Shown here: positions 11,918-13,961 of the stretch, in pieces
Layout of the letters: the number at the start of each line of letters is the position of its first letter
Numbering within the stretch: position 1 is the stretch's first letter
From: Bordetella sp. BOR01
GTDB lineage: Bacteria; Pseudomonadota; Gammaproteobacteria; Burkholderiales; Burkholderiaceae_B
Assembly: GCF_019218885.1 (NCBI RefSeq)
Contig: NZ_JAHUWT010000003.1
Coordinates: forward strand, 744,001 to 808,000
DNA: 64,000 nt
Direction of reading: 5' to 3'
Notes under the pieces: model-generated
The model's input: only the letters and a program-made list of their open reading frames with translations
Told to the model about the DNA's origin: nothing
Database searches by the model: none
Position numbers and translations under genes: made by a program

Positions 11918-12724
11918 TTGCCGGCCTCGACTTCCAGCGCCGGCCGCGCCGACGCCCCCATCCTGGTGGTGCAGCTCACCGACACGCATCTGCTGGCCGA
12001 GCCAGAGAGCGTGGTGTGCCAGGTCAATACCGATGCCAGCCTGCGCACCGTGCTGGACCTGGTGCGCGCCAATGGCCACCGGCCCGACCTGCTGCTGGCC
12101 ACCGGCGACCTGTCGCAAGACGGCTCGCCGGCTGCCTATCAACGGCTGCGAGACCTGCTGGAACAGACTGACTGGCCCGTGCGCTGCCTGCCTGGCAACC
12201 ACGACGAGCCCCATGCCCTGCGCCATGCCCTGGGCCTGTGGACGCAGCCGGTGACCGACATCGGCGCCTGGCGCATCATCCTGCTGGACTCCACCGTACC
12301 GGGCTCTGACGGCGGCCATATCGACGACGCGCAGTTCGACCTGCTGGAACGCGCCGCAGCCCTGGCGGGCGATCGCCACATATTGGTGGCCCTGCACCAC
12401 AACCCGGTGCAAATGGACAGCAAGTGGCACGACAGCATGATGGTCGACAACGCCCAGGCCCTGTTCCAGCAACTGGCCACCCTGCCACGCACGCGCGTAC
12501 TGCTGTGGGGCCATGTGCACCAGGCGTTCGACCGCCGGCGCCATCACCTGCGCATGCTGGCCACGCCATCGACCTGCTTCCAGTTCGCCATACGCGATGG
12601 CCGGCATGTGCTGGACGATGCCACGCCGGGCTACCGTTGGCTGAAGCTGTATCGCGATGGTTCGCTGGCTACCGGCGTGCGGCGCATCGACACCGCCGCG
12701 TGGCGCGACGTGCTGGCGGCCTGA
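11918..12724 (+). CDS. cpdA: CpdA-type 3',5'-cyclic-nucleotide phosphodiesterase (class III metallophosphoesterase)
   Basis: This 268-aa cytoplasmic enzyme probably hydrolyses cAMP to AMP. All metal-binding motifs of the calcineurin-like fold are present: LTDTHLL (Asp22, His24), TGDLSQDG (Asp64), PGNHDE, the His of VALHHNPV, and WGHVHQ. That set and the length match CpdA. The start is TTG at 11918 with AGGAG 7-8 nt upstream; no better start was seen. The neighbouring divergent gene encodes an antiporter with a cyclic-nucleotide-binding-like domain, which suggests a functional pairing. It is convergent with rpoH, with an sRNA-like structure and terminator between them. Confidence 0.88.
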   Translation: MPASTSSAGRADAPILVVQLTDTHLLAEPESVVCQVNTDASLRTVLDLVRANGHRPDLLLATGDLSQDGSPAAYQRLRDLLEQTDWPVRCLPGNHDEPHALRHALGLWTQPVTDIGAWRIILLDSTVPGSDGGHIDDAQFDLLERAAALAGDRHILVALHHNPVQMDSKWHDSMMVDNAQALFQQLATLPRTRVLLWGHVHQAFDRRRHHLRMLATPSTCFQFAIRDGRHVLDDATPGYRWLKLYRDGSLATGVRRIDTAAWRDVLAA

Positions 12725-12747
12725 AGCAAGGGCCTTTGTGGCCAGGC

Positions 12748-12781
12748 AAAAAAAATGGGGCACCGATATGCTAGGTGCCCC
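12748..12781 (-). terminator. Rho-independent terminator of rpoH (minus strand)
   Basis: Read on the minus strand, GGGGCACC and GGTGCCCC form an 8-bp stem with a 9-nt loop (12781 to 12757), followed by A and eight Ts (12755 to 12748). This is a strong intrinsic terminator for transcripts coming from rpoH or from a small RNA in its 3' region. Confidence 0.85.
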
Positions 12782-12832
12782 GCAAGCATCCGTTTCATAG
12801 GGGAGGGGAAAGAGGAGAAGCCGAAACGGATG
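12748..12832 (-). ncRNA. Candidate small RNA / 3'UTR-derived RNA behind rpoH, with C/U-rich anti-Shine-Dalgarno loop
   Basis: On the minus strand CATCCGTTTC (12832 to 12823) and GAAACGGATG (12796 to 12787) form a perfect 10-bp stem around a 26-nt loop. The loop is almost all pyrimidine and contains CTCCTC and CCCCTCCCC. Five nucleotides later comes the intrinsic terminator. A stem exposing a CUCC-type loop followed by a terminator is the architecture of anti-SD 'cuckoo'-type sRNAs. No clear independent promoter was found in 12833-12973, so release from the rpoH mRNA by processing is the simpler model. Confidence 0.45.
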
Positions 12833-12973
12833 ACAAGACTGCTGTACCGGGTACCGGTAATGCGGTCTACAGAGATTTAGGCGCCTGGATAAGGATTAAG
12901 TTTCCAGGGCCATGAAATTGGGCGGCACGAATTTGAATCAGATTGTTTCTGCGCCGCCGGGCGCCGCCAGGCT

Positions 12974-13861
<888 letters not shown>

Positions 13862-13906: not shown

Positions 13907-13933
13907 TTAGCACTCTCTATGTACGAGTGCTAA
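13907..13933. promoter_or_regulatory. CIRCE element (HrcA operator) upstream of rpoH
   Basis: TTAGCACTC (13907-13915), nine bases, then GAGTGCTAA (13925-13933) is a perfect match to the CIRCE consensus TTAGCACTC-N9-GAGTGCTAA. It overlaps the predicted rpoH promoters and lies 45 bp before the start codon. HrcA should therefore repress rpoH. Confidence 0.95.
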
Positions 13934-13947
13934 TTCGACTGCTGCAA
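13918..13947 (-). promoter_or_regulatory. Predicted sigma-70-type promoter of rpoH inside CIRCE
   Basis: On the minus strand TTGCAG (13947 to 13942) and TACATA (13923 to 13918) are 18 bp apart. The -10 sits in the CIRCE spacer and right arm, so HrcA binding would block it. Confidence 0.5.
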
Positions 13948-13961
13948 TGCGGCGGAGTTCC
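13934..13961 (-). promoter_or_regulatory. Predicted sigma-E (RpoE)-type promoter of rpoH
   Basis: On the minus strand GGAACTC (13961 to 13955), 16 bp, then TCGAA (13938 to 13934) resembles the RpoE consensus GGAACTT-N16-TCAAA. It would start transcription in the CIRCE region. E. coli rpoH also has a sigma-E promoter, so this is plausible, but it rests on motif match alone. Confidence 0.45.

Follow-up and report, generated by a model that had tools for sequence, protein, structure and literature searches.

In Bordetella pertussis, two RNAs of 80 and 110 nt, bprN1 and bprN2, were mapped to the minus strand in the interval from BP3747 (>) to BP3748 (<) (PMC3110155), and an Hfq-dependent RNA of ~120 nt, CT_521, was later described between bp3747 and rpoH (PMC12235514). 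bprN1/bprN2 and CT_521 are one RNA, lying between BP3747 and rpoH and carrying a C/T-rich seed ahead of its terminator (PMC3110155, PMC12235514). CT_521 was found by RIL-seq to have 22 S-chimeric partners, which share a Shine-Dalgarno-like motif complementary to its C/T-rich region; its level is reported to be higher in both RNase mutants, the paper also describes a promoter deletion and a library treated with TEX, and Northern blots cover seven Bordetella species, six besides B. pertussis in the figure legend (PMC12235514). The same paper presents CT_433 and CT_521 as central riboregulatory hubs of B. pertussis, leaves their stress control undetermined, and calls the control of CT_521 transcription open (PMC12235514). 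The sRNA itself is already known (bprN 2011; CT_521 2025). What we add, starting from the copy in a 64,000-nt stretch of Bordetella sp. BOR01 DNA (hereafter the window), are proposals about the promoter of this sRNA, about a regulator acting upstream, and about how far the RNA is conserved across the family.

Other stress-linked and anti-Shine-Dalgarno RNAs offer points of comparison. The alphaproteobacterial cuckoo RNAs/CcsR have CU-rich loops and ties to stress sigma factors, and the loop motif of the cuckoo RNAs is a 9-mer of the CCUCCUCCC type. In enteric bacteria, sigma-E represses through the sRNAs MicA and RybB, whose targets are mainly outer-membrane protein mRNAs; the window RNA resembles these in its proposed logic only, that of sigma-E repressing through an sRNA. 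In Rhodobacter, cuckoo RNAs/CcsR have been reported with a DUF1127 partner gene and an RpoHI/RpoHII promoter (PMC10253847). In its mode of action the window RNA would resemble the anti-Shine-Dalgarno sRNAs S17/RF02278 and NmsR, the latter likened by description. S17, or CT_433 (RF02278, the Betaproteobacteria toxic sRNA; double-hairpin, ncS27), is similar in its CU-rich anti-Shine-Dalgarno stretches, in Hfq and in its transport and metabolism targets (PMC11722255, PMC5688073), but its reported sigma-A type promoter and Bvg control (PMC12235514) differ from the sigma-E-like promoter of the window sRNA. Neisseria NmsRA/NmsRB have two UC-rich anti-Shine-Dalgarno regions, repression through both of which has been shown by mutation (PMC5362039). 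The window RNA likewise has two such regions, whereas NmsR has three stem-loops, with one seed lying between stems.

We read the window RNA as the local copy of bprN/CT_521: an Hfq-dependent, trans-acting anti-Shine-Dalgarno sRNA that would be promoted by sigma-E and made mainly from its own promoter. We put the probability of this reading, taken as a whole, at roughly 0.75.

The locus and its identity with bprN/CT_521

The element is flanked by rpoH, with which it shares its orientation, and by a convergent gene. The features discussed below are as follows, in window coordinates.

11918..12724, plus strand: convergent calcineurin-like phosphoesterase gene (ORF list, Pfam)
12748..12781, minus strand: intrinsic terminator, an 8-bp stem and then a T run (direct reading; helix covaries)
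12787..12832, minus strand: hairpin with a perfect 10-bp stem and a 26-nt loop (direct reading, covariation)
12800..12808, minus strand: anti-Shine-Dalgarno module 2, CCCCUCCCC
12812..12819, minus strand: anti-Shine-Dalgarno module 1, UUCUCCUC
12748..12869, minus strand: inferred primary sRNA transcript of ~122 nt, bprN/CT_521 ortholog (start from the -10 box; length match)
12876..12881, minus strand: predicted -10 box CCTAAA, 16 nt past the -35 box (motif match)
12898..12904, minus strand: -35 box GAAACTT of a predicted sigma-E-like promoter (motif match)
12934..12949, minus strand: tandem half-sites GAAACA-N4-GATTCA, 10 bp apart, a candidate RisA/OmpR-type site (motif of the relatives)
12974..13861, minus strand: rpoH (sigma-32), the next gene upstream, co-oriented with the sRNA (Pfam Sigma70 regions 1.2, 2 and 4)
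13933..13961, minus strand: sigma-E-like rpoH promoter, GGAACTC-N16-TCGAAT (motif match without shuffle control)

Stem, 26-nt pyrimidine loop and terminator all lie on the minus strand where a first-pass annotation of this DNA had placed them. The stem arms, CATCCGTTTC (12832-12823) and GAAACGGATG (12796-12787), pair perfectly and enclose the loop GGCUUCUCCUCUUUCCCCUCCCCUAU (12822-12797), which is pyrimidine at 23/26 positions and carries both CUCCUC and CCCCUCCCC. The terminator begins 5 nt past the hairpin, and its arms, GGGGCACC (12781-12774) and GGTGCCCC (12764-12757), are followed by an A and eight T (12755-12748). The region 12850-12740 folds with a z of -2.79 (an equally good fold in 2/200 shuffles), and the inferred transcript, 12869-12748, reaches -45.8 kcal/mol with a z of -5.69 (0/200 shuffles), its loop being left unpaired. 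A covariance model finds a single strong match in the window's own genome, of 100.7 bits, the runner-up having 24.1 bits (E 0.021). This single match, together with covariation in two alignments, confirms the hairpin-terminator as a structure beyond chance.

On position, orientation, size, architecture and the published description, the window RNA is an ortholog of B. pertussis bprN/CT_521. It has a conserved C/T-rich region directly ahead of an intrinsic terminator, and a start near 12869, as predicted from the -10 box, gives a transcript of the length published for CT_521, in agreement also with the 110 nt of bprN2. No difference between the two RNAs is known, their identity being judged from position, orientation and description. 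The first-pass annotation had taken the site for an sRNA locus whose loop is anti-Shine-Dalgarno, and the B. pertussis RNAs reported at the orthologous position bear this out (PMC3110155, PMC12235514). Two other leads were discarded: the text matches to bprN in PMC8386462 are to a strain name, BPrnc..., and CT_532, a MicA-like sRNA of the 2025 paper, is a different RNA that is described there apart from CT_521.

Known RNA families do not account for the element. At the gathering threshold, Rfam yields just one tRNA, elsewhere, in the whole window and nothing on the sRNA element, and the two matches obtained in 12720-12960 with E up to 5 are both on the opposite strand and far under the cut-offs. 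The RF02278 model does not match the window element either, at gathering or with E up to 5 in 12720-12960, and the S17/RF02278 RNA of the own genome is a separate locus (C22:849300-849364, L188; 69.6 bits). The UUGUCUCCUCC of that RNA includes the complement of GGAGACAA. Membership of the cuckoo RNAs, to which the first-pass annotation had likened the hairpin, is not supported: the CCUCCUCCC 9-mer is absent from the window loop, which has CUCCUC and CCCCUCCCC, none of four neighbouring ORFs scanned with Pfam is DUF1127, and the bacterial group is the wrong one. The likeness is that of stress-sigma-linked small RNAs with CU-rich loops. The cuckoo RNAs/CcsR go with DUF1127, which the scanned neighbours of the window RNA lack, and with RpoHI/RpoHII promoters, where the promoter recognised by motif in the window is sigma-E-like.

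Covariation of the stems and conservation of the loop

Two alignments were compared. The first (A1) has 33 rows, picked by loop pattern from 37 loci with identical rows dropped; L038, which has a linker with AA, was lost from it through the loop pattern. The hold-out alignment (A2) consists of stretches chosen by the covariance model in other genomes: of 20 stretches, the three that repeated L012, L035 and L042 were removed, leaving 17 genomes from 15 genera, at least two of these already present in the first set.

Both alignments show covariation. In A1, 13/18 pairs changed on both sides and 98.6% of cells are paired, a level that 0/500 shuffles reach, and controls with slid partners gave 2 pairs and 34-47% pairing. 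In A2, the corresponding figures are 12/17 pairs, 96.2% and 0/500 shuffles, with 4-7 pairs in the slid controls. Of the 10 hairpin-stem pairs, 7 in A1 and 6 in A2 show changes in both partners, and this stem is by itself 100% and 99.4% paired, respectively; the terminator helix covaries in both alignments. Further pair types show no clear excess, being reached by 38/500 (A1) and 124/500 (A2) shuffles.

The loop behaves differently. Module 1, UUCUCCUC, and module 2, as CCCUCCC, are each present in 33/33 rows of A1, where selection by loop pattern makes the invariance partly one of construction, and in 16/17 rows of A2, where conservation is biased somewhat upward because the model rewards the loop. 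The linker between them is UUU in the window, and elsewhere also UU, UUC, AAU, CUU or UUUU. The modules thus hardly change, although the stem and the terminator around them do, which is the opposite of a conserved terminator under a drifting loop. We suggest that the stem would act as a clamp that keeps two pairing modules open. Several relatives, L018, L019 and L022 among them, have a second conserved stretch, GATGCGCGAGCC, within the 5' half of the sRNA; judged by eye, it is absent from the window copy.

Candidate promoter and upstream repeat

A sigma-E-like promoter consensus, GAACTT-N16-CTAAC, stands ahead of the sRNA. We examined 23 representatives, roughly one for each genus: in 21 the highest-scoring sigma-E-type match falls 49-65 nt ahead of the loop core, the spacer is 16 nt in 20 of those, and the mean score over all 23 is 10.1/13 as compared with 7.5 in equally long downstream stretches. 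The expected promoter is also the best match in 15/17 hold-outs (Fisher p 2e-10 against dinucleotide shuffles; promoter p-values treat related genomes as independent and are too small). Individual p-values against shuffles run from 0.003 to 0.70, with five of the 23 representatives at about 0.14 or more (L012, L016, L038, L042 and L044) and five of the 17 hold-outs above 0.14 (L278, L281, L282, L283 and L289). In the own genome the strict pattern occurs twice and its reversed control 8 times; the strict pattern alone is therefore not distinctive, and the case for the promoter rests on conservation. The sole other exact match to GRAACTT-N16/17-CTAA there (L121) is inside the genome's own rpoE coding sequence (C11:693013-693040), and is either chance or an internal promoter.

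By motif and conservation, then, a sigma-E-type promoter appears to stand at the transcript start. In the published B. pertussis mutant, positions -13 to -2 of CT_521 were removed as the -10 region, and the published rseA deletion strain was blotted for CT_532 (PMC12235514). Searches of one open-licence library, covering main articles, gave no report of a sigma-E-like promoter together with a RisA-like site for CT_521. Sigma-E is the likeliest factor for the sRNA promoter, since a similar promoter precedes rpoH, and in B. bronchiseptica the promoter of that gene (fam) is transcribed by SigE in vitro (PMC3490749). A GGAACTT-N16-TC-like sequence is present in most of 48 rpoH upstream regions, counted without a shuffle control, with L016, L279 and L280 as clear exceptions.

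The 65 bp ahead of the -35 box contain a repeat. A de novo search of 22 representatives returned the motif ACAtatTGTTACAAaT, whose best place is 14-17 bp before the -35 box in 16/22 and 26 bp before it in 4/22, that is, in 20/22 representatives and in two phases ~11 bp (one helical turn) apart. At the expected place it is missing from the representatives L012 and L039, and from L271. Half-sites at preset positions were found in 14/17 hold-outs, as against 0.98 expected from shuffles, and the count would be 16 with the -35 boxes of L282 and L283 set by eye; in L288 and L289, TTACA occurs twice, at 24 and again at 34. The first null for the motif used fewer starts and just 8 mononucleotide shuffles. 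With equal settings the search scores 139.6 here and 56.2, 98.7 and 115.7 in other regions, the last of which is, judged from its consensus, largely rpoH coding sequence. The window repeat is degenerate, each half-site matching GTTACA at 4/6 positions. GTTACA is the RisA ChIP-seq consensus, and a word search of the main text of the RisA paper gives no hit for rpoH, BP3747 or BP3748 (PMC11019879). From this resemblance we suggest that RisA may bind the upstream repeat.

An alternative is that a different ECF sigma factor uses the promoter, or that the repeat serves an OmpR-family regulator other than RisA. The RpoE family model gives 11 matches in the own genome, one alone of them over the cut-off, and the RisA motif is just 6 bp long. 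We nevertheless regard this as unlikely: the rpoH promoter has the -35 box and the 16-nt spacer in common with that of the sRNA, its B. bronchiseptica version is transcribed by SigE, and conservation over many genera would be better explained by the single clear RpoE.

Relationship to rpoH

The first-pass annotation had the sRNA made from the sigma-32 mRNA, as a 3'-UTR-derived RNA cut from the rpoH message. The sRNA does lie 141 nt past the rpoH stop on the same strand, a simple scanner finds no separate rpoH terminator in the window, where rpoH transcripts should run through the element, and the 80-nt bprN1 band could be a processed form. Such an origin is nonetheless improbable, being opposed by the conserved promoter-like sequence, by the TEX-treated library and the promoter deletion for CT_521 (PMC12235514), and by two features of the relatives. 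Separate rpoH terminators are found by the simple scanner at 10/49 loci (that of L044 is weak, and several of the loci are close relatives), and in some genomes the sRNA occurs away from rpoH. It is kept in L274 and L289, where rpoH is absent from the 1.4 kb upstream; the promoter is clear in L274 (11/13) and weaker in L289 (9/13, p 0.30). In L284, ~1.5 kb containing other ORFs separates the sRNA from rpoH; the same genome (L012) has a weak promoter match (p 0.14).

The evidence thus argues against the sRNA being simply part of the rpoH message, of which it is probably not just a piece. What stands of the earlier claim is that read-through copies from rpoH are possible in the window, since no separate rpoH terminator was found there. 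The link to heat shock made in the same annotation is plausible by way of the sigma-E-like promoter common to the sRNA and rpoH, and not by way of a shared transcript.

At the sigma-E-like rpoH promoter itself there is a CIRCE (HrcA) operator, TTAGCACTC-N9-GAGTGCTAA (13907-13933, minus strand), which is present at 45/48 family loci examined. Control of rpoH may therefore involve HrcA as well as sigma-E.

Proposed mechanism and targets

The sRNA would be made mainly from its own sigma-E (RpoE/SigE)-like promoter, of the kind that stands in front of rpoH, with an OmpR-family regulator, for which RisA is the obvious candidate, as a probable second input upstream. Its strong hairpin would present the two loop modules, UUCUCCUC and CCCUCCC, and the Hfq-bound, trans-acting RNA would pair through them with purine-rich Shine-Dalgarno regions, such that many mRNAs are translated less at once. 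Under envelope or heat stress, chaperones would then go up via sigma-32 while translation is damped in parallel. We infer sigma-E use, RisA binding, this stress logic and its validity in the window's species from sequence.

More tentatively, and with somewhat more doubt than confidence, we propose that this is a family-wide non-coding arm of the sigma-E response, in which RisA, at a tandem TTACA site on one helix face, and sigma-E would switch on a two-module anti-Shine-Dalgarno translation damper in step with rpoH. It would then be a betaproteobacterial counterpart of the enteric sigma-E sRNAs that targets Shine-Dalgarno sequences generally and not porin mRNAs. The sigma-E-like promoter would explain when the sRNA is made and, with the RisA-like site, offers a concrete and testable answer on the stress control of CT_521.

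The net effect on targets is uncertain. Removal of the CT_521 promoter raised or apparently raised four target transcripts, lowered tcfA and left the protein of two targets unchanged (PMC12235514), and these mixed effects in B. pertussis imply that simple repression is not general. In the own genome, RAGAGGAGA-N3..10-ATG has 11 matches and its reversed control none; the proteins behind 10 of the 11 were scanned, and are 8 TctC, 1 DctP and 1 MFS. TctC genes are numerous in this genome (at least 150 matches). GGAGAC precedes 24/41 TctC starts and 6/50 other starts; in this comparison and the next, the start codons are a script's guesses, and some of the TctC loci had been retrieved with the RAGAGGAGA pattern itself. 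Duplexes of the window loop have the same median with TctC starts as with others (-11.6 in each case, p 0.6), while the S17 region pairs slightly better with TctC starts (p 0.041). In five other genera, TctC was found at 8/29 parsed RAGAGGAGA loci (30 loci from 43 matches). A permuted Shine-Dalgarno pattern gave 4 matches, with 2 in its control. TctC (Bug) genes were consequently rejected as specific sRNA targets, the loop pairing no better with them than with other genes, and as the loop does not discriminate we predict no specific targets. A DctP-type transporter gene with a nearly identical protein start and a GAGAGGAGACA ribosome site was noticed in three genera (L201, L256 and L257), and is a candidate for a conserved target of one of the two anti-Shine-Dalgarno RNAs.

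Action in cis on the phosphoesterase gene was considered as well. The two genes converge, with the T run (12748) 24 nt beyond the phosphoesterase stop (12724), and the neighbouring opposite ORF was considered the likely target of bprN in the 2011 paper (PMC3110155). In the window, however, the sRNA does not overlap that ORF, and the 22 RIL-seq partners and their Shine-Dalgarno-like motif also speak against cis action (PMC12235514), which we hold to be very improbable. Hardly credible is that the element merely terminates and stabilises the rpoH mRNA, as its strong terminator, apparently common to rpoH in the window, might suggest, in view of the nearly fixed loop modules, the separate rpoH terminators, the copies away from rpoH and the discrete RNAs on Northern blots (PMC3110155, PMC12235514).

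Distribution in the family and beyond

The sRNA is widespread in the window's family. When 61 genomes were searched at the DNA level, 25 matches reached E<=3.5e-7, all 25 in this family and 24 of them at loci where rpoH is also present. The covariance model R1, built from 33 sequences and supplied for an sRNA family that no Rfam model matched here, finds the sRNA in at least 178/268 family genomes and at least 36/43 genera; some of the listed family genomes that lack it are greatly reduced in size (0.7-0.9 Mb). A strong model match stands directly behind rpoH at 13 of 80 rpoH loci retained from a larger set, 12 of them in Alcaligenaceae-type organisms. The thirteenth (L064) is a Burkholderiaceae bin, and its 45.6-bit match directly behind rpoH may be a genuine copy at the margin of the distribution.

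Beyond the family, only weak matches to the model occur, in 22/368 non-family genomes of a class sample (best 3.4e-6) and in 27 genomes of an order sample of 399 (best 2.4e-6). An E<=0.01 nominally allows ~4 matches per sample, which both samples exceed, but these E-values are rough. At 23 class-sample loci, rpoH was found in none of the stretches examined, and a CU run, defined by pattern, in 9/15 of those read. We do not claim these matches as homologs. One of them from outside the order (L157, E 3.4e-6) has CTTCTCCTTCCCCTCCCC in a hairpin loop followed by a terminator and strongly resembles the window element, its examined stretch being without rpoH. Two others, from a single genus outside the order (L164 and L166), consist of a single hairpin-terminator with CCTCCTCTTCCCCTCCCC in the loop, again in a stretch without rpoH, and this element looks like an independent anti-Shine-Dalgarno terminator loop.
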